This document shows, piece by piece, positions 9,855 through 22,422 of a stretch of DNA of 64,000 nucleotides (positions are counted from its first letter, which is position 1; the number at the start of each line of letters is the position of its first letter). The notes beneath the pieces were generated by a model, which was not told the origin of the DNA, made no database searches, and saw only the letters and a program-made list of their open reading frames with translations. The position numbers and the translations under genes are program-made. This DNA comes from Methanobrevibacter millerae (GTDB lineage: Archaea; Methanobacteriota; Methanobacteria; Methanobacteriales; Methanobacteriaceae): contig NZ_CP011266.1 of the NCBI RefSeq assembly GCF_001477655.1, forward strand, positions 852,001 to 916,000. Reading direction: 5' to 3'.

Positions 9855-11591
9855 CTATGATTTTACTTTTTCAGTTAATTTATGTAATGTTGACATGATA
9901 TACAATAGTAACATGTTAATAACTATTAATAAAACGGTAGTGACATAACTGGTGTGATTTAAAAGCAAATAGAACACAACGGTTAAAATGATTACTTCAA
10001 TAATATGTAATTTCATTAAATTTACTCTTCGCCTCAAGAAACTACCAATGCTTATACAAATTATAGCAACAATTCCTATGAGTACAATTGAATTAGGATG
10101 TAATTTTATAATTAAATATAAAATTAACAAGGTAGCAATAACTGACAATATTAAAGTAAATAAGAATAATTTTCTTTTTAAAACACTTTCATCATCTTCA
10201 CCATCTAATTTAATTTCATCAATACTTTGATCTTCTTTTGTGAATGTTTTAACTGTGGATTTGCCATCATATTTTTTATCAAAATTCTTGAACAAATGTC
10301 TTAAGAATAAATAATATACAACCCCTATACCCACCTCCGTTATGACAATTGAAATCAAAACACTGCTTGCATTATTCAAAGTAACATGCAACACAATGAT
10401 TAAACCCATTTCAAAGAAAATTTTAACCGCTGTAAAAAGCAGTGAATACATGCTCTTTCCAAAACCGTCCAACATTTTTGCAGAAATCATAGCAAATGGA
10501 ACTGCAAGCATGGAAACTATCCCGAATAATGCTATCCAGTATATTTCAGTTTGCATTCCTGTAATGGAGAATAAATTAAATATATAATCTCTCATAAAGA
10601 AGAATAAAATCACTAATGCCAGTGAAGTAAAAACTGATAATTTAAGCACATATTTATACATGTCATTTAATTCGTTGAATTTACGTGCTCCAAACAAATG
10701 TCCGGTAACACTCATCAAGGCCCGGCCATAACCTCTAACAGGGACAATTAACAGATTTTTTAATTTATTCTATACAGAATATAGAATGGGGCCAATATTG
10801 TTCATAGATATTAGCAATGTAGCATTAACATATGAAGCTGAAAGAAGCCACAGAGCATTATCTAAAAAATTAGGAAGCGCTACCTTAAAGATTTCAATAA
10901 TGATATATGAACGGAATTTGAAGTATTTGGTAGATAATGGAACTTTTGTCCTGCCTGAAAGATATAAATACAAAATTGGAATAAAAACAACAAAAGCTGA
11001 AAAAACAGTAGCATATGCCGCTCCTTTGATTCCCATATTCAAATTAAAAATAAAAATAGGGTCCAGAATCAGATTTAAAATATTAGATCCTATTATTAAT
11101 GCAGTTGGAGTTCTTGAATTTCCTTCGGCCTGCAATGTTTCTGAAAACAGATTATTAAAAATAAAAAGGTATGCAAAAACTATAATCGGAACCAAATAGT
11201 CAAAAATCAAAATATATGAGTTTTCAGCATCCACATAAAACAAAACTCCATTTGCAAACAAAAAGAGTAATACAATAATAAACCATGCCAGATTACATGC
11301 CAATAATCCATGAATTAATGCATTGTATGAACTTTCATAATCTCCCGCCCAGATAAAACGGGACATGATTGAATTAGTTCCCTGACCTATTGAATCGCCC
11401 ACTGAAAAAACAAATGTAACAAATGGAATTGATATTCCCATTGCATAAAATGCTTCCATACTTATTTTAGACACCCACAACATGTCCACTATTCCATAGA
11501 TGGCATCAAAAATGCAAAATGCAATTATGGGCAAACTTAATGTCCAGAAAGATTTCTTAGGTAGGGTTACCAAATCAATTTTTTCTTTCAT
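9855..11591 (-). pseudogene. MATE-family exporter interrupted by one in-frame amber codon
   Basis: Two stretches (11591-10770 and 10718-9855) are in the same frame, separated only by a TAG at 10772-10770 and 17 sense codons. Read through, they give one MATE protein of about 578 residues. The joint reads ILYSV-stop-NKLKNLLIVPVRGYGRAL, with typical MATE helix 7-8 sequence continuing smoothly on both sides. After the MATE core there is a charged linker and four more hydrophobic segments (last ~100 residues). It is a pseudogene, a sequencing error or a recoded gene. Pyrrolysine decoding is not known in Methanobrevibacter, so loss of function is the simplest reading. It probably served one of the two neighbouring NRPSs. 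A downstream TTG/ATG start near 10718 could in principle make a half protein. Confidence 0.85.
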
Positions 11592-11972: not shown

Positions 11973-13460
11973 ATGAGCAAAGACCGAGAAAGCATGAAGG
12001 GAACATACTTCATCTCTTCAATTTCAACAACTTCATACCTAGTGGAATATGGGGTTTTATCAATTTTTACTTTATTTCTACTTTATGTTTTGGATTTCTC
12101 AATTCCATTGACATCACGGGTTTATGGATATTATTACGGCTTTGCATATCTGATTCCAATACTAATCGGATACATTTCTGACAAATACCTGAATAAATCC
12201 ACTTCACTGACCATTGGCTTTGTTTCAATGATAATAAGCCAAGTGATTCTATGGTTTTCAGCCTCATTATATGACCCCAACAATCCTGTTCGAGATACAA
12301 TAGTCCTTAATTTGCAAAACATTGCGTACTTTATAGGATTGCTGTTCCTCGCATTGGGAATGAGTTTTTCATCCCTTTCAATTACACATATGATTAATTC
12401 TATCAATAACGAATCATCAAGACTTAAAGGATTCTCCATTTATTATCCCATTTTGAATTTTGGAATATTGGTAGGAGTAATCATAACAAGTGTGGTGGTG
12501 GGAAATGAAAATTATGAATTATATGAATGGATTTTCTTCATATTCACAATTATTCTAATTATCGGACTAATCATCTTTAGATTAGGCAAAGATAAGTATC
12601 TGGTTGACAATGACGGAAATCCTATGAATGATGACCGCCCTAAGGAGTCCATAATTGAGGAGTCAAATAAACTTCTCAGGAACATATCACATGAAAGCAT
12701 ATTCAAAATCAAAAATCTAAACTTTAATCAAAGAATAAGGCTTTTTCGTGATTCACTGACACTCAAGGAAAAGGATAGGATAACGGTCTTTTTCATATTT
12801 TTAATGATAATAATCTTTTATAGAATTGCATTTTCTCAATCCAGCATATCCCTTGTCTTTTTTATAAATACTTATGTCCAAAGGGATTTGAGCTTTTTTA
12901 CAATACCTGTACAAATGTTTTCCCTGCTTAATCCTCTATTCATTTTAATTTTAGGCCCTATTTTTATTAAAGTCACTGATAAGCTGGAGAAAAAGAAAAT
13001 CAAACTGGGATTCATAAAAAGAACCATATTGGCCCTGTTGGTCATGGTGCTCTGCTTTACGCTGCTAACCGTAATTGGCTATTATATAGATATTGATTCT
13101 GTGGATAAAATCAGCTTGATTTGGATTGTTGTTTTTGAATTTTTTATAGCAGTATCTGAACTTCTTTTCTCGATAGCGGGTTATGCTATGGTTGGTGATT
13201 TGGCCTCTGAAAAATATTATTCCTTGTTTTTCGGATTTTTCCTGGCTACAAAGTCTGTTGCAATGTTCTTGTCCGGATTTATATCCTCACGTTTCCCACC
13301 GGAAGGAACTGAGTCTTTTATTTTTCACATGCCGGTTCATGGACTGATGGACTTTTTCATGATATTTGTAATTATGAATCTATTTACTGCATTAGTTCTA
13401 ATCATTTATAGAAAAAAATTGATTGAAAAAATGCATCTTGAAGATTCGAATTCTGCATAG
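11973..13460 (+). CDS. POT/PTR2-family proton-dependent oligopeptide transporter
   Basis: A 495-residue polytopic membrane protein. The start matches the POT pattern of an N-terminal helix with EYG (residues 24-26), followed by a YGYYYGFAYLIPILIGYISD stretch equivalent to the family's gaYl-P-iGG-iaD signature. Further on comes a GFSIYYPILNFGILVG segment. POT proteins symport di- and tripeptides with protons. No Shine-Dalgarno is seen before the ATG and a TATA-like element lies ~30 bp upstream, so the message may be leaderless. Its position between the two NRPS genes suggests handling of a small peptide product or precursor, which is inference. An MFS drug transporter is the main alternative. 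Confidence 0.75.
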   Translation: MSKDRESMKGTYFISSISTTSYLVEYGVLSIFTLFLLYVLDFSIPLTSRVYGYYYGFAYLIPILIGYISDKYLNKSTSLTIGFVSMIISQVILWFSASLYDPNNPVRDTIVLNLQNIAYFIGLLFLALGMSFSSLSITHMINSINNESSRLKGFSIYYPILNFGILVGVIITSVVVGNENYELYEWIFFIFTIILIIGLIIFRLGKDKYLVDNDGNPMNDDRPKESIIEESNKLLRNISHESIFKIKNLNFNQRIRLFRDSLTLKEKDRITVFFIFLMIIIFYRIAFSQSSISLVFFINTYVQRDLSFFTIPVQMFSLLNPLFILILGPIFIKVTDKLEKKKIKLGFIKRTILALLVMVLCFTLLTVIGYYIDIDSVDKISLIWIVVFEFFIAVSELLFSIAGYAMVGDLASEKYYSLFFGFFLATKSVAMFLSGFISSRFPPEGTESFIFHMPVHGLMDFFMIFVIMNLFTALVLIIYRKKLIEKMHLEDSNSA

Positions 13461-13546: not shown

Positions 13547-16500
13547 CTAGGTGATATCTTCCAAATTCTCCTTATCCAGCATTTGTGTTAAAATTCGAGC
13601 ATACATCCTGACAAAACTGGCGGCAGTATCGCTTGAAAACATGTCTGTATGGTTTATGTGAATGACATATCCGTCATCCAAATCATTGATTACGCAGAAG
13701 AATTCGGAAAATGAATCCTTAAATGCATCCCTTATGATTATGTCGTTTCCAACATCGGATACATCATTCAAATCAAAATTATACTCAAACAGTACAGTAT
13801 TATTCAAGTTGAATTCCTTTTCAAGCAATCTGAATGGATAGACATTGCTAAGCATTGATTTTAAGACCAAATCGGAAAAGTAATCCAGGTATGTTTTAAT
13901 GTCATCGTTTTTGCAGTCTACAAGAATTGGGGTTGTTCGGGCAAACATTCCCAGAGAATTCTGAATATAATTTTCATGACGACCATGCTCCACAAAGTTA
14001 TAGTAGACCTTAGGGCTTCCTATAAATCGGGAGTAAGTATATGCAAATACTGCATTTAGGAAAGTACCAATGGTGATGTTATTGTTTCTAGTGAACTCTT
14101 CAACATCACTTCGAATTCTGCGAATTGGGAGAGAAACTATTCCTTGAGAACCGTTTGAATCTTTTTGTATTGAATTGACTTCGCCAATGCCTGCCAGTTG
14201 TTTGGCATAAAACTCATGTGAAGAATCATAAGTCTCTTCGAATTTGGATTCAAAAGAATCACGGCTGGCATAAAGGAAGCCCAAATCAACATCTTTGTTC
14301 AAATTACCTTCAAAAGCATCAGTGAAATTATTGCCAATTATAGTGTATCCTATAGCGTCATTAATCACATGATGGATATCATAGACAATTCGATTGGATT
14401 TCTCATTGCCGATAATGAAGAAACGGGCCAAATACCTTTCCAAATCAAAAGGCTTTATAAGGTCAGTGAAATCATCGGTATTGCAAACCTCAACTAAAGG
14501 ATAGCTATCACAGATTAAAAGGGGCATGTCCATGTCATCCAAAATACGTCCTTTTAAGATAGGATGCTTTTCAATCAAGGAATGAATTGAATCCTTAATG
14601 TCATCAACGGATTTATCCAAAGGACATTTAACAAGATTACATGTAGAATATGCGTTGCCCATATCATAGTCTTTTTCATTGAAATAAATTTCAAGCTGGG
14701 ATTCAGAAAGGGCACAGATAACATTGTTATCATTAAAATTGAAATTTCCAATGAATTCTAATTCGGATTTGATGTTTTCAATGAATTCCGTGAGATTATC
14801 GGCTATATATGTGTCTTTTGGATACGTGCCGCTAATGTAATAGGAATCATCAGCACGATTGATGTTGAAAACAATACCATATGTGTCCACATCTTTCAAA
14901 TCATCTTGAACTAGATTATGATTGGCCGATTTGAATAGCTCATTTTCAAAAGCAAATTCTGTGCTTAGGAAATTGAATGTAACTGGACAGTGCCTATACT
15001 CCAATTCATTGGTGATGTAGATTAATGATCCATAATTCAAACCCAAATTCCTTATATCTCCAAATGCGGTTTTAATTTTATAAACATCTCTTACAATGGA
15101 AACATCATCATAATCATTGCCGATATCGACATGTACTGGATACTGGCTGGTAAACCACCCTACGGTTCTGAAAAGATTTGCAAGATTATCATCACGCCCA
15201 TAAGATTCTCGATTAAATATGATATCTTTCCCGTAAGTCTTTTTATATGCACGTGCAATAGCTAATGCCCAATATTCCTCCTCTGAAAGCATCAATAGGT
15301 TATCGACATCATATCCTACATCAGCATTGAAATTAAATCCCTTGGCATTTCCTCTAATCTGTGAATCGTCCAATAGTCCATTAACTTCAATCCAATGCAA
15401 TTTCTCTTCTTCAGAAATGTTATCAACCAATCCTTTTACATCTTCAATCCAATCCTTATATGAATATGGTCTGGTGAGTTCAATATTCCCATCATTCGGG
15501 TCATGATAAGCTTCTTTTATTGATAATCCATTACCTTCGATAATCTCTGATGAAATTTCTTGAGTATTTTCAATATTCTGAGCAATCCTATAAGGTGTTC
15601 TATAATTCAATATGTCTCTTGCAGGATATGTTATGCCGTTTTTGTTGAGCAATGAGATTACACGTATCGCCGTGATGGAATCTCCACCGAGATTAATGAA
15701 GTCATCATTTAATCCAACGAACTCCTGATTAAACACAGCCTTGAATGCATCAGCCACCATCTTTTCCACGGCATTTGTTGGAGCAACATAATCAACAAAA
15801 CTATCAACTTGATATTCATTGCCATAAACGTCTAGGGAATTCTCACTTTGACTTGGGGTAGAGAATATTTTCAAATCTTCACTGATGCAATAGTCAATAT
15901 CAGAGAGCATCTCCTTTTCCAACATTTGGGTTAAAATTTTGGCATACGCTTTAGCAAAACTGATTATGGTTTTTCTAGAAAACTTATCGGAATGCTGAAT
16001 CCCTACAACATAGCCATCATCCAAATCATTAACGACACATAGCAAATCGGAAATTGAATCTATGATGTTTTCGCTTGCAATAATGTCCTCATTTAAACTG
16101 AAAACATCAATGAGATTCAAGTTATACTCAAACATCACATCATTATTCAGATTGAATTCGGAAGCAAGCATTCTGAATGGATAAACATCATTTAACATGG
16201 AAGATAATGCCAAATCTGAAAAATAGCTTAAATATTCTTTGATGAAATCATTTTTGCAATCAACCAGAATTGGAACAGTTCGAGTGAACATCCCTACTGC
16301 ATTTCGAGCATAATCCTCATGTCGCCCATGCTCAGTGAAATTAAAGTAAACTTTGTCACAGCATAAAAAACGAGAATAAGTATAAGCAAAAGCGGCATTT
16401 AAGAAAATTCCTGCAGTTATCCCATTAGCACTAGCGAACTCTTCAACACTGTTCTTAATGCCTAGAATAGGAATGGAAACAATGCCCTCACAACCCTCAG

Positions 16501-19500
16501 ATTCATTCGGCAATTGCTTTACTTCATCGATATCTGTCAAGTGTTTGGCATAGAATTCATGGGCTCGCTCATAGCCGGATTCAGATTTGGATTTGAAAGA
16601 ATCATAACTTGCATGAACAAAACCTAAATCAATACTTTCATCCAGATTATCTTCTAAAGCATTAATCAAATCATTTTCAACAAATGTGCATCCTACAGCG
16701 TCATTTATGATATGATGTGCCTCAAAGAATACCTTTTTTTCTTCATTTTTATCAATAATATAAAAACGTGAGAGGGATTTTTCCAAATCAAATGCCTTTA
16801 AAAGATTAGAAATGTCATCATCAGAAGTTATATTAATATCAGGATTGCTGTCGCAAATTAAAAATGGAGTAGTGTCATTATCTAAAAGTCTTGACTTTAA
16901 AATAGGGTGTTTATCAATTATTGATAAGATTGCCTCTTCAATTTCTTCAATCGAACTATCCGAACCGCAATCAATAGAGGCAAATGTGGAATATGCAGTA
17001 TTCTTATTGTTGACTTTCTCATCCAAATAAATTCCCAATTGAACTTCAGATAATGGACAGATTATTGTGGAATCATCAAATGAAGCATTTTTCTCCTTGA
17101 AAATATTTTTTGCTGAATTTCTAACATCTTCAAGCCATGATTCATATGAGCTAGGTTTATCAAGTTTCATTTTTGCATCTAAAGCCAAATGAGTGTAGAT
17201 ATATGTCAAATCATCCAATAAAATACTCCAGCTTACCCCATCCACAATCAGATGATGAATGACAAAAACAAGATAACATTTATCTTCGCAGCGAGCCAAA
17301 CTGACATCCATCAGATTATTGAAAACATCAAGTGAATCTTTAGCTTTCTGGATGATTTCTGCAATGCCTTCATCAATATTGCCAGTTATCTCATATTCAT
17401 TGATTTCACAGATTCGAGTATTCAACGGTAATATTTCCTGCACATACCAATCATCTTTAACTTTGAATCTCGCCCTCAGCATGTCGTGCAGTTTTGTTAA
17501 TTCATCCAAAGCAGCCTGCAGTATAGCGATATCCAAATCAACTGCAGATTCCAAAACAAATTCCTGTGTGAAATTATTCCTGTTTATTTGATCAAAGAAA
17601 TAATCCTGAATTGGAAGCAAATCAAAAATGCCTTCGACATATTCATGGGATTCTTCAAATTTATCTCTCGCATTCTGAGCAATGAGATAGGGGGTCTTAT
17701 ACTTTAAAATATCACTTGGATTACAAATGATTCCTTCATTTTGAAGCAGGGAGACTATGCGTATGGCCTTAATTGAATCTCCACCCAAACGATAGAAGTT
17801 ATCATTGATTCCGACCTTCTTTACATCCAGAACATTTTCCCATACTTTAACAACTGCATCTTCAACCGCATTTGTCGGTGAAGCATATTTGTATTTTGCT
17901 GCTTTAGGTTGAGGCAATCTTTTAATATCTATCTTTCCGTTGTTGTTTAGAGGTATGGAATCAATCTGCATTATTGAAGTGGGAACCATAAACGGAAGTA
18001 GCACATTTCCCAAATCATTCAATAGTTTATCCGTATCAATGACATCATCACTAACGATGTATGAATACAATTGAGTATTTCTGGAATCCGCTACTGTGAC
18101 GGCCTGGTTTATATTCTCATTTCTCTCAATTTGCCTGTTGATTTCATCCACTTCAATTCTTTGACCATTGATTTTGATTTGCGTATCCATCCTTCCGATG
18201 AAATTTATTTCGCCATTACTATCAAGATATGCTAAATCTCCAGTGCAGTACAATGTGCCTTCATCAAATGGATTTGCGATGAAATGTCTGTTTGTTTCAT
18301 TCTCATTGTTTAAATAACCATCAGCCACCTGTTTTCCACCAATGCACAATTCTCCAGGAATGCCTATTGGGCATAATTGTCTTTTATCATTTAAAATATA
18401 AATTTGAGTATTTATATTGGCTTTTCCAATGGTGATTTTATCATATAGGACTCTTTTAATGCTTGCGAATATTGTTGCTTCGCAAGGTCCATATGCATTG
18501 TAGATAATTGGATTGTAATTTTTCCGAATTTCGGCTACCAGACCTTCATTTAGGACTTCTCCTGCAAGTATCAGCTGTCCCACATTTTCCATAATCCTTT
18601 CAAAATTTGGAAGCTTTAAAAACATTTTCAATTTGGCCGGAACCGTATTGACAATTGATTTTTGATTCAATACGTCTCTAGGAATTCCTGAAAAATCATA
18701 ATTCTCATTGATTACATGCAGCTGAATGCCATTCAACATTGAAAAGATAATCTCAAAAAGCGATGTGTCAAATCCTATATTTGTCGTGTGGTAAAAAATC
18801 CTGCTGTCTTTATCATAAAATTGCTTTTTAGCACTTATCAGGAAGTTTTCAACATTTTCATGAGTGATTTGCACACCTTTTGGGACCCCTGTAGTTCCTG
18901 AAGTATGAAGTATGCACAGCTTGCCTTGAGAGGACAATTCGAATTCGCCATAATCATAATCATATAATGACTTTTGGTTCAAATCAACAATGTCGACATC
19001 ATCCATGTCCAAATCCAGATTCGTCAATACAACTTTTGCGTCAACCTCATCAATGATGCGCCTTATCATTCCCTCTGGAGCTGATGGGTTGATTGGGACA
19101 TAAACCGCATTCAGTTTCAAAATGCTATAGAAGCCCAAAACAGATTCTATACTACGGTTAGCTATCAATACGATATTATCTTGTTTTTTAACACTGAATT
19201 TGTCCTTCAGATAATTTGACAAGCTGTTGGTTTTCAAATCAAAATCATTATAGCTTAAAGAAGATTCATGATTGGACAAAATTTTCATTGTAGGGTTTTT
19301 AGCAATTTGCTCTTTTAATGCTATCAGGATTGGGTCATATTTCACGTCCTCCTTAACGCCAGTCATTTCGATTATCCTTTCCCGCTCGCCAGATGATAGA
19401 ATGTCAATGTCATCAATTTTCATACCCATATTTTTGCCGATGTTGTCAATCAAATTAATATAATGGCCCAGTAGTCCATTAATCTTATCAAAGGAATACA

Positions 19501-20749
19501 AATCAGTATTATAATCGAATTCAACAGTCAAATCGGATGGACTATTCTTTATTGTGCATGTCAAATCAAATTTGGATCCATCCCACTCTAAATTATTGTC
19601 AAAGTCATCGGCAGTGTTCTGTATAAATGCTATGTTGAACAGAGGATTGAATGAATTGTTGGTTGGTATGTTATGGTCTTCAACTATCTGTTCGATTGAA
19701 TAGTTCTGATTGGCGAATAAGTTGGCCAATTCTTCTTCGGTTTTCATTAAAGTCTCTTTTAAGGTATCCCTGCCACACATGGTCTGTGCAAATGGCAGTG
19801 TATTGGCAAACATTCCCAAAGTCTTTTTCAGAACTGGAGATGTTCTTCCGTTTGTTATGATTCCAATTTGAATGTTCGATTCGTCTGTGTATTTGTGAAG
19901 CAAAATGCAGAATTGCAGAAGTAATAATTTGTAAACTGTGGTGTTGTTGTCCATTGCTCGTTTTTCTATAATTTCTTTATCCAGAATGTATGCAATCTTG
20001 CTTCCGTTAAAAGTCATTTCTAGTGGCCTTTCAAAATCTGTCATAAGTACGGTTCCATATTCTGAAAGTTCTCTGTTTTTCCAGTAATCCGCTTCCTTAG
20101 TCTGCTGATTCTTAACCCATAATACATTAACCGGAGGGTTTCTTTTAAGTTCATATTTTATGGATGGCTTTTCACAAATGAGTAAGATATCTTCAACCGT
20201 TAGATTTTCGATTCCACAACTGACAAATTGATTTAAAACCTTTTTGATGCTCCTTAAAAATGAGTGGACATATGGAAAAGTGTATTTGTTGGCATCGAAC
20301 TTTAATTTCAAGAGATATTTCTGGGATGATTCGCCGATAATCAGTGAGGGGTTTGAATCATTGTCTTCCAAATCATTATAAATATAATTAAAATGAGATT
20401 GGATGGTCAATTTCCTTAACAATTCATTATACTCCTTTGGATTGGAAAAATCATCACTGAGATTGGCAATATACTCAATGACATTCCTTTTTCTGTTTTC
20501 ATCATTGAATTTCAATGGGGCCTCAATGGATTTTCCATTGATTTTGGACTTTGTTTTGATGAAAATTTGGCTATCTTCACTATATTTTGTCAATGTAATG
20601 CATGTAGCTGTCAAAAACAACAAATTAGGGTCTAAATCGTATTTTAAAGCTAAATCATTAATTTTTGATTTGATTATGGAAATGCAAACATATTCCATTT
20701 TTGAGATGTTGTCATCATTTTTATTAAACATAAGGGCTGAAGATTGCAT
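13547..20749 (-). CDS. Rearranged NRPS: (half-C)2-A-T-E(N)-C-T-E(C)-C
   Basis: 2400 residues with no stop but an irregular order: 1-195 half-C-like segment; 205-465 C-terminal half of a C domain without HHxxxDG; A (core LHTSGTTG at 614, A10 NGKID); T1 Ser992; N-half of an epimerization domain (LLPIQDYFF ~1043, HHLIVDG at 1165); C (1229-1640, HHIINDA at 1345); T2 Ser1691 with no A domain before it; C-half of an E domain (RTVGWFTS from 1861); terminal C (2010-2400, HHVINDA at 2126). No thioesterase or reductase follows. The two C domains are clear tandem duplicates and both have Ala for the Gly of HHxxxDG. The ATG at 20749 has no clear Shine-Dalgarno, and the N-terminus may be truncated. It may be a decaying synthetase, or one that works in trans with the first NRPS. 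Confidence 0.9.
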   Translation of the reverse strand: MQSSALMFNKNDDNISKMEYVCISIIKSKINDLALKYDLDPNLLFLTATCITLTKYSEDSQIFIKTKSKINGKSIEAPLKFNDENRKRNVIEYIANLSDDFSNPKEYNELLRKLTIQSHFNYIYNDLEDNDSNPSLIIGESSQKYLLKLKFDANKYTFPYVHSFLRSIKKVLNQFVSCGIENLTVEDILLICEKPSIKYELKRNPPVNVLWVKNQQTKEADYWKNRELSEYGTVLMTDFERPLEMTFNGSKIAYILDKEIIEKRAMDNNTTVYKLLLLQFCILLHKYTDESNIQIGIITNGRTSPVLKKTLGMFANTLPFAQTMCGRDTLKETLMKTEEELANLFANQNYSIEQIVEDHNIPTNNSFNPLFNIAFIQNTADDFDNNLEWDGSKFDLTCTIKNSPSDLTVEFDYNTDLYSFDKINGLLGHYINLIDNIGKNMGMKIDDIDILSSGERERIIEMTGVKEDVKYDPILIALKEQIAKNPTMKILSNHESSLSYNDFDLKTNSLSNYLKDKFSVKKQDNIVLIANRSIESVLGFYSILKLNAVYVPINPSAPEGMIRRIIDEVDAKVVLTNLDLDMDDVDIVDLNQKSLYDYDYGEFELSSQGKLCILHTSGTTGVPKGVQITHENVENFLISAKKQFYDKDSRIFYHTTNIGFDTSLFEIIFSMLNGIQLHVINENYDFSGIPRDVLNQKSIVNTVPAKLKMFLKLPNFERIMENVGQLILAGEVLNEGLVAEIRKNYNPIIYNAYGPCEATIFASIKRVLYDKITIGKANINTQIYILNDKRQLCPIGIPGELCIGGKQVADGYLNNENETNRHFIANPFDEGTLYCTGDLAYLDSNGEINFIGRMDTQIKINGQRIEVDEINRQIERNENINQAVTVADSRNTQLYSYIVSDDVIDTDKLLNDLGNVLLPFMVPTSIMQIDSIPLNNNGKIDIKRLPQPKAAKYKYASPTNAVEDAVVKVWENVLDVKKVGINDNFYRLGGDSIKAIRIVSLLQNEGIICNPSDILKYKTPYLIAQNARDKFEESHEYVEGIFDLLPIQDYFFDQINRNNFTQEFVLESAVDLDIAILQAALDELTKLHDMLRARFKVKDDWYVQEILPLNTRICEINEYEITGNIDEGIAEIIQKAKDSLDVFNNLMDVSLARCEDKCYLVFVIHHLIVDGVSWSILLDDLTYIYTHLALDAKMKLDKPSSYESWLEDVRNSAKNIFKEKNASFDDSTIICPLSEVQLGIYLDEKVNNKNTAYSTFASIDCGSDSSIEEIEEAILSIIDKHPILKSRLLDNDTTPFLICDSNPDINITSDDDISNLLKAFDLEKSLSRFYIIDKNEEKKVFFEAHHIINDAVGCTFVENDLINALEDNLDESIDLGFVHASYDSFKSKSESGYERAHEFYAKHLTDIDEVKQLPNESEGCEGIVSIPILGIKNSVEEFASANGITAGIFLNAAFAYTYSRFLCCDKVYFNFTEHGRHEDYARNAVGMFTRTVPILVDCKNDFIKEYLSYFSDLALSSMLNDVYPFRMLASEFNLNNDVMFEYNLNLIDVFSLNEDIIASENIIDSISDLLCVVNDLDDGYVVGIQHSDKFSRKTIISFAKAYAKILTQMLEKEMLSDIDYCISEDLKIFSTPSQSENSLDVYGNEYQVDSFVDYVAPTNAVEKMVADAFKAVFNQEFVGLNDDFINLGGDSITAIRVISLLNKNGITYPARDILNYRTPYRIAQNIENTQEISSEIIEGNGLSIKEAYHDPNDGNIELTRPYSYKDWIEDVKGLVDNISEEEKLHWIEVNGLLDDSQIRGNAKGFNFNADVGYDVDNLLMLSEEEYWALAIARAYKKTYGKDIIFNRESYGRDDNLANLFRTVGWFTSQYPVHVDIGNDYDDVSIVRDVYKIKTAFGDIRNLGLNYGSLIYITNELEYRHCPVTFNFLSTEFAFENELFKSANHNLVQDDLKDVDTYGIVFNINRADDSYYISGTYPKDTYIADNLTEFIENIKSELEFIGNFNFNDNNVICALSESQLEIYFNEKDYDMGNAYSTCNLVKCPLDKSVDDIKDSIHSLIEKHPILKGRILDDMDMPLLICDSYPLVEVCNTDDFTDLIKPFDLERYLARFFIIGNEKSNRIVYDIHHVINDAIGYTIIGNNFTDAFEGNLNKDVDLGFLYASRDSFESKFEETYDSSHEFYAKQLAGIGEVNSIQKDSNGSQGIVSLPIRRIRSDVEEFTRNNNITIGTFLNAVFAYTYSRFIGSPKVYYNFVEHGRHENYIQNSLGMFARTTPILVDCKNDDIKTYLDYFSDLVLKSMLSNVYPFRLLEKEFNLNNTVLFEYNFDLNDVSDVGNDIIIRDAFKDSFSEFFCVINDLDDGYVIHINHTDMFSSDTAASFVRMYARILTQMLDKENLEDIT

Positions 20750-20888
20750 AAAAACACACTATAATAGTAGTTTTTACTGATTATTATTAAAAAATTTTTT
20801 CATTTAGTTCACAATTTTTAATCCTAAAACAAAATTGATTTGACTTTGGAGGGAATCCTATTGATTTTGCAATTTTTTTTTAAATCAG

Positions 20889-20952: not shown

Positions 20953-22422
20953 TTAAGTTAATGATATGAATCTTATTGCGTTAATAACTGAATTTAAATC
21001 CATTTTATTTATTTTTATTAGATTAAATAATCTTATTAGATTGTATGATGCTACAATGGCGAACATTAGGTTCTGTACTCTTTTTAATCCAATTATTGGG
21101 ATATGGTCATAATCATAGATTCTTTTGAAAGTTCCGTTGTGTGCTTCTACTGTCTTTGAACGTAGTTTATAGTCTTTTATTCCTTCTTCTGTGGACATTA
21201 ATCGTTCTACTTTGTATTTGACGTCGTGAACGTATCTTGTTATTGTTCTGTGGTTTGTTGTGTAGCAGGTTCCTTTGTGTTTGCATTTTTTGCAAGCTGT
21301 GTAGTTGGAATAGACTAATTTGATTTTATTTCCTCCTCCTTTTTCTTGTGGTGCTGGATATGAGCCGTCAAGGGTTAATTCTTGTTTTTCTGGGCAAATA
21401 AAAACATTTTTATATTCATCAAAAACAAAGTAATCTATAGCAAATGGATTGTCAGGTTGATTGCCTGAATTTTGTCTATTTTGCTGTTTTGTTGGAATTA
21501 AGGCAGTGATATCTAATTCTTCGAGATATTGCAGATTTGCTAGTGTTGAATATATTGTATCCGTGCTAATTTTTTGGGGTTTAAGTTGTAAATTAACGAG
21601 TATTTGATTCATTAATGCTGGGATTTGGTAATGGTCTGTGGGATTTTGAACTGCATTAACTCCACAAATTAACTTTGATTTTGTATCTGTCCCCAATTGT
21701 ATGTTATATGCAAATTTTGGATATTTTTGTCCTTTATCTTTTATTTTCATTAATCGAGTGTCATGATCATTTAAAGCCAGTGACACTTGGCCAGAATAAT
21801 CTAACAACTGCCACCAATGAAACAAAATATCGACTTTTTCTTCGTCAGATAATGAATTATCCATTAGAAATTTTCTTGCTGTTCTTCTAAGCTGTTTAAT
21901 TTCATTTTTTGACAATTCTTCAACCATATAATGTCTAATTAATAGACTAATGTCTTTTTCTTTAATTATATTAAATGGTGAATTATATGCCTTTTTGATT
22001 GTCCCATCAATCGCAATATGTTCAAAATCAGTTAAACCCAGTTTATTAGCCACAATTAGAATAAAACTCATAATAAACTGGAAAATTCCTTGAAAATCCT
22101 CACGATAATCTCGAATAGTTCGATCTTTAGGTTCAATAGCATGTGAAATTAAATTATATAAATAATTAAATTTTGCATTATGGGCCAAGACCACAGAACT
22201 TGTTATTTTATTAATATAACCATAAAAAATTAGTTTAATCATATCTTTAAGTTCAAATGGTGGTTTTCCTTTATCAGACGTTATTCGTTCAATTTTAAAG
22301 AAATTAAAAGCACTATCAACAATAATGGATGTAAGATACATAAGCTGAAATTCTTCATCCATTTCATCAATTTCCCTACTTTTATCACTCAGAATAAGTG
22401 AATTCAAAATCATATAAATCAA
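20953..22422 (-). CDS. IS1182-family DDE transposase
   Basis: 489 residues, apparently intact. The N-terminus has the DUF772-type segment of IS1182/IS1478-like transposases (PFELKDMIKLIFYGYIN, then TIRDYR). The DDE core is visible as AIDGT (first Asp), STDTIYST (second Asp) and KTVEAHNGTFKR (Glu). A CxxC-type cluster (ACKKCKHKGTC) lies before the last acidic residue, as in relatives. It lies within the matched terminal repeats, in the same direction as the NRPS downstream. ISM1 of M. smithii is a different family, so this is a separate archaeal IS. Confidence 0.9.
   Translation of the reverse strand: MIYMILNSLILSDKSREIDEMDEEFQLMYLTSIIVDSAFNFFKIERITSDKGKPPFELKDMIKLIFYGYINKITSSVVLAHNAKFNYLYNLISHAIEPKDRTIRDYREDFQGIFQFIMSFILIVANKLGLTDFEHIAIDGTIKKAYNSPFNIIKEKDISLLIRHYMVEELSKNEIKQLRRTARKFLMDNSLSDEEKVDILFHWWQLLDYSGQVSLALNDHDTRLMKIKDKGQKYPKFAYNIQLGTDTKSKLICGVNAVQNPTDHYQIPALMNQILVNLQLKPQKISTDTIYSTLANLQYLEELDITALIPTKQQNRQNSGNQPDNPFAIDYFVFDEYKNVFICPEKQELTLDGSYPAPQEKGGGNKIKLVYSNYTACKKCKHKGTCYTTNHRTITRYVHDVKYKVERLMSTEEGIKDYKLRSKTVEAHNGTFKRIYDYDHIPIIGLKRVQNLMFAIVASYNLIRLFNLIKINKMDLNSVINAIRFISLT

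Follow-up and report, generated by a model that had tools for sequence, protein, structure and literature searches.

Can a synthetase whose epimerization (E) domain is cut in two by other domains still be a working enzyme, and how did such an arrangement arise? Archaeal NRPSs are, to our knowledge, rare, and we know of no product made by one. The question is raised by sm9_0760, an NRPS gene of Methanobrevibacter millerae SM9, a methane archaeon of the cow and sheep gut. The window (the whole 64,000-nucleotide stretch of DNA that was analysed) belongs to a closed genome of 2,543,538 bp, described as that of a rumen archaeon in the genome report (PMC4987999). The gene is a single open frame, and the annotated length in that report corresponds to a start at the methionine of residue 7. 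The domain order reads C-lobe, C-lobe, A, T, E (N-lobe), C, T, E (C-lobe), C, and Pfam returned one AMP-binding match, two PP-binding matches and five stretches of Condensation. The split E domain as a whole occupies 14732-17638 on the minus strand. Its two pieces enclose a complete C domain, with the motif HHIINDA, and a T domain, with GGDSI; Pfam found no A domain between them, that is, between C3 and T3. The protein stops in a C domain without a release domain, and in all orthologues covering that end the alignment places the protein end directly after C4.

A profile of 417 positions, built from nine intact archaeal E domains of relatives, matched sm9_0760 in two pieces (Table 1). The N piece covered model positions 2-200 (250 bits, E-value 2.7e-74) and the C piece positions 157-416 (426 bits, E-value 7.4e-128). 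Both CAT-like lobes are present with the E-type motifs PIQxxFF, HHxxxDG, ExxGR, RTVGWFT, LGLNYxSL and FNFL. They do not form one continuous domain: the N-half with the catalytic His and the C-half with the catalytic Glu are parted by the 540 residues of C-T in SM9, and by C-A-T in one relative (G037). The end of the N-half and the start of the C-half coincide with the normal inter-lobe connection of an E domain. This two-piece match bears out a first-pass annotation, which had read from the sequence an E domain with its halves separated by a C and a T domain. The interval it gave, 13547-17260, was too short, since the N-half begins at 17638, about 380 bases before it. The motifs it had picked out lie where it placed them: HHLIVDG at residue 1165, SYESWLEDV at residue 1201 (17123-17149), SYKDWIEDV at residue 1763 (15437-15463) and RTVGWFTS at residue 1861. 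The near-repeat SYxxW, seen there as marking both joints, is the same inter-lobe helix, of which one copy was kept from each of two ancestral E domains.

Table 1. Features of sm9_0760 and of the convergent transporter gene, in window positions
Feature	Position	Strand	Basis
NRPS gene sm9_0760, 2400 aa (2394 annotated)	13547..20749	-	ORF list; Pfam; PMC4987999
Orphan C-lobe of first C domain (C1), remnant	20138..20749	-	alignment; dN/dS 0.32-0.42; about 45% of conserved C-lobe residues kept
C-lobe of second C domain (C2), fused to C1 by deletion	19361..20119	-	alignment with G094, G096, G013, G037, G075; breakpoint DNA
Adenylation domain A2, sole A domain left in sm9_0760	17885..19360	-	Pfam AMP-binding; dN/dS 0.14-0.23
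Carrier domain T2, GGDSI, Ser at 17774-17776	17639..17884	-	Pfam PP-binding; motif position
E N-lobe (E1N), catalytic HHLIVDG at 17237-17257	17102..17638	-	HMM 2.7e-74; 23/23 invariant residues; dN/dS 0.12-0.20; groups with first E of G075
Joint 1, site of E1 C-lobe deletion	17078..17101	-	alignment to G075
Complete C domain (C3) between the E halves, HHIINDA at 16697-16717	15881..17077	-	Pfam Condensation; alignment; dN/dS 0.14-0.31
Linker remaining after loss of A3 (A3 present in G037, G075)	15797..15880	-	alignment
Carrier domain T3, GGDSI, Ser at 15677-15679, without own A domain	15530..15796	-	Pfam PP-binding; motif position
Joint 2, site of E2 N-lobe deletion	15482..15529	-	alignment; disordered in AlphaFold model
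E C-lobe (E2C), RESYGRD at 15191-15211 (catalytic Glu), RTVGWFTS at 15146-15169	14732..15481	-	HMM 7.4e-128; 54/54 invariant residues; dN/dS 0.10-0.20; groups with second E of G075
C-terminal C domain (C4)	13550..14731	-	alignment
Convergent POT/MFS transporter	11973..13460	+	Pfam PTR2/MFS

The search for relatives covered 139 genomes from the family and 152 from the phylum. The same split was found in nine of them (SM9, G074, G103, G099, G094, G096, G013, G090 and G037), in copies of 53-99% identity from independent assemblies; six of the nine are metagenome-assembled genomes from rumen and goat-gut projects. In all split members the cut falls at the same place: the N piece runs as far as model positions 186-213, and the C piece in general begins at 142-159 of 417. 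The other E domains of the genus are intact. The un-rearranged orthologue that the first-pass annotation had called for was found in G075, whose synthetase reads half-C, A, T, C, A, T, E, C, A, T, E, C and has the same two ends. In G037, from another genus, the E halves are parted by a whole C-A-T. The transporter gene next to sm9_0760 has a clear homologue adjoining the NRPS in G013, and in G037, G075, G094 and G096 a gene of 492-496 residues takes its place, which indicates that these loci are orthologous. Outside the archaea, a plasmid search found no E domain split in a like manner and no record covering 80% of the query, and a scan of viral contigs with a DNA pattern for RTVGWFT gave chance matches only.

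Three of these relatives show local peculiarities. The C domain between the E halves of G037 (L071) has HYIIIDA in place of HHxxxDA and may be inactive. The split orthologue of G090 (L078, 4193-13616) has a frameshift between C3 and T3, reflecting either real decay or an assembly error. In G013 (L031), a radical-SAM gene at 336-1577 with a match to the C-terminal part of lysine 2,3-aminomutase lies directly upstream of the NRPS, and it might supply a beta-amino acid.

Comparison with the unsplit synthetase of G075 revealed how the split form may have arisen. Relative to G075, the alignment shows clean, in-frame deletions: the split lineage lost the C-lobe of the first E domain (E1) and the N-lobe of the second (E2), and all members but G037 also lost A3. 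In the lobe trees, the two kinds of split lobe fell with different E domains of G075, the N-lobes with the first (support 97/93) and the C-lobes with the second (80/85). On these trees the E halves are shown to come from two different ancestral E domains. The history fits successive in-frame deletions, at least three of them separate, which would have taken the C-lobe of E1, the N-lobe of E2 and then A3. Since G037 has the split E with A3 still present, loss of the A domain was later than the split or separate from it. Judged from the trees and the joint positions, the split in G037 and that in the other genomes are likely one event. The earlier proposal of unequal crossing-over between two modules with removal of one A domain thus stood as to the two ancestral modules and the lost A domain, and fell as to the single crossover, because at least three deletions are needed. 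A single unequal crossover between E1 and E2 would remove or duplicate the C-A-T between the joints and leave an intact E, and it is further rejected by the lobe trees and by the C-A-T between the halves in G037. We likewise reject the entry of a pre-formed C-T into a single E domain, because the halves tree with two different E domains and G037 has C-A-T between them. A further deletion, of A1-T1 and the N-lobe of C2, occurred only in SM9, G074 and G103. It sets two C lobes in tandem (19361-20749), the second of which precedes A2 as the lone C1 lobe precedes A1 in relatives.

We then asked whether the two halves bear the marks of a functional domain. Invariant residues were defined on 20 intact archaeal E domains, 23 in the N-lobe and 54 in the C-lobe. 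Aligned to these, both halves of SM9 match and keep all 77 (23/23 and 54/54). The other split members retain 96-100%, with a leave-one-out mean of 97% for the intact domains, and the catalytic His and Glu are kept in every split copy covering them. Among SM9, G094, G096 and G099, dN/dS of the E halves was 0.10-0.20 (dS 0.3-0.6; upper 95% bound 0.38), compared with 0.14-0.23 for A2 and 0.13-0.21 for the terminal C domain. By dN/dS and motif retention, the pieces of the host domain are under selection to keep their function. The lone C1 lobe provides a contrast, with dN/dS of 0.32-0.42 and about 45% of the conserved C-lobe residues kept versus 85% in intact C domains. Next to this decayed lobe, the E halves show the pattern of components of a functioning domain, not that of remnants. 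Of the two copies of the inter-lobe segment RPYPYKxW, the one on the N-half has drifted and the one on the C-half is kept, as expected if only one copy serves a joined E domain. Just before RTVGWFTS (region 15170-15172), at least 90% of intact E domains have Asn, and every split member has Phe, Tyr or His; this replacement is possibly an adjustment to the split.

With the same cut in nine genomes and both halves kept, the enzyme is probably working and not broken. As far as sequence data can tell, we consider it rather probable that the two lobes make up one composite E domain, pairing around a C-(A)-T insert into a working E. The N-lobe, from the ancestral first E, would supply the catalytic His, and the C-lobe, from the ancestral second E, the catalytic Glu; His and Glu are the acid-base pair of canonical E domains (PMC8807600). 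Flexible linkers, at the point where the two lobes of an E domain are normally connected, would let them come together across the insert. An insert at this place is topologically easy, as the joints are short or disordered. The composite E would then epimerize the residue on T2, and possibly that on T3 too. A more extended version, in which a single composite E wraps the C-(A)-T, serves both the outer carrier T2 and the inner carrier T3, and so stands in for two E domains, is doubtful, and we put it forward tentatively.

Structure prediction left the arrangement of the lobes loose. In an AlphaFold model from an 80-row alignment, the greater part of each lobe was well folded: much of the N-lobe reached a pLDDT of 84-92, the C-lobe was patchier and the joints were disordered; at a pTM of 0.46 the lobe arrangement was not fixed. 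The 80 rows included intact E domains, which would favour pairing anyway, so that even a positive result from them would have been weak. C3 was thinly covered, because MAFFT drew the added C-domain rows onto the E halves. The Foldseek match of the model does not bridge the insert, and prediction from six split orthologues only gave a pLDDT of 30.

It seems unlikely that the lobes are constrained for another reason, serving as docking or scaffold elements (the N-lobe for T2, the C-lobe for T3 and C4) with no D-residue made at this point. Lone C lobes at the N terminus of these NRPSs do show that single lobes are tolerated, and the joint arrangement is not fixed by AlphaFold. However, both halves retain His, Glu and all E-specific motifs as fully as intact E domains do, the acid-base pair would not be needed for scaffolding, and the lone C1 lobe has lost its conserved residues. 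Pairing of the halves between two chains, as a domain-swapped dimer, is quite improbable. The sequence holds nothing against it, and some NRPSs are dimeric, for example PchE (PMC8807600); against this, an insert at the normal inter-lobe connection with flexible linkers makes pairing within one chain topologically simple.

A dead synthetase, which the first-pass annotation had set beside pairing of the halves as the alternative, is very unlikely, whether the decay is laid to the whole split lineage or to SM9 alone. In favour of decay, three or four in-frame deletions have accumulated, SM9 is also without A1-T1 and the N-lobe of C2, a transposase lies 204 bp upstream, a MatE gene nearby is broken, and G090 has its frameshift. 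Purifying selection and full motif retention contradict decay, and the same split in nine genomes argues against it. The frame is open over 2400-3628 codons in eight of the nine (contig ends allowed for), the E halves stay at the low dN/dS given above, and among the signs of a pseudogene (dN/dS near 1, stops, frameshifts) the one frameshift in G090 was found. Between SM9 and G103, after their extra N-terminal deletion, there are 16 non-synonymous and 15 synonymous changes; 15 of 31 synonymous, against about 20% expected under neutrality (p about 4e-4), again points away from decay, the few changes making this weaker evidence. The pair SM9 and G074, with 13 versus 5, is not informative by itself. 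Upstream of the gene, 20750-20880 is conserved with G094 until shortly before the transposase at 20953. The promoter thus seems to have escaped the insertion element, and that it is shared with G094 speaks for a working synthetase. Misassembly, for which repetitive NRPS modules and several metagenome-assembled relatives might be cited, has a negligible probability, given the closed SM9 genome with gap-closing PCR and a pulsed-field gel check (PMC4987999) and the same order in independent rumen and goat-gut assemblies at 64-99% identity.

The carrier domain T3, its own A domain lost, would receive its amino acid from A2 or from some other A domain in the cell. This missing A domain weighs against the composite reading, as do the frameshift of G090 and the altered C3 motif of G037. 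The SM9 genome holds three full-length AMP-binding genes outside the NRPSs, all acyl-CoA or acetate-CoA ligases, and no stand-alone A or A-T partner was found among these three; three further matches are partial. On the full-length genes, SM9 therefore does not show the separate A or A-T partner expected for an A-less module loaded in trans. This would leave A2, the neighbouring NRPS or no loading at all for T3. SM9 carries one PPTase-family gene.

Precedents exist for nested A domains, for modules lacking an A domain and for cuts engineered between the lobes of C domains, and we rate sm9_0760 as ordinary in its parts and unusual in its arrangement. In TioS (methyltransferase) and PchE (epimerase between motifs A8 and A9), an A domain is interrupted (PMC8949500, PMC8807600); as in sm9_0760, a catalytic NRPS domain is split in sequence by another domain, and both enzymes still work. 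Their host is an A domain with a tailoring domain as guest at a loop, whereas in the split NRPSs the host is an E domain cut between its lobes, the guest is an assembly-line C-T or C-A-T, and the host halves stem from two different ancestral domains. The E domains of tyrocidine synthetase TycA and gramicidin S synthetase GrsA (T-E-C) share with sm9_0760 the T-E order and the complete set of E motifs, HHxxxDG and the Glu motif among them, but are single continuous domains of about 450 residues. The cut lies at the same place in XUC exchange units, engineered NRPSs cut between C-domain lobes (PMC11546977), which likewise form a hybrid domain from lobes of different origin at the inter-lobe connection; there the lobes are rejoined directly, whereas in the natural case of SM9 they stay parted by other domains. 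The C-T without its own A domain resembles syringomycin SyrE module 9 and albicidin, loaded in trans (PMC8949500), and differs from them in that the full-length AMP-binding genes of SM9 outside the NRPSs include no stand-alone A-T partner. The open-licence literature searched yielded no interrupted, split or truncated E domain (the matches concern truncated C domains), no report of an interrupted C domain, and no nested NRPS domains with a host other than an A domain.

If the composite reading holds, the two lobes of a C/E-superfamily domain can lie apart in the sequence, and engineering cuts of the XUC type between lobes would have a natural precedent. Unusually, living lineages among the relatives represent three stages, namely unsplit, intermediate with the A domain still there, and final, which makes stepwise remodelling of an assembly line directly testable.

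Three further features of the window deserve mention. The binding-pocket residues of A2 (17885-19360), assigned by eye, read D-T-F-T-I-A-A-I-F and look close to Phe/Tyr codes. A broken MatE transporter gene at 9855-11591 on the minus strand now forms two ORFs. In each of the two NRPSs of the window, an additional, isolated C-terminal lobe of a C domain stands ahead of the first A domain (20138-20749 in sm9_0760; 29-1500 in the first NRPS). Since the orthologues also start with a lone C lobe, such lobes seem to be a habit of these archaeal starter modules.
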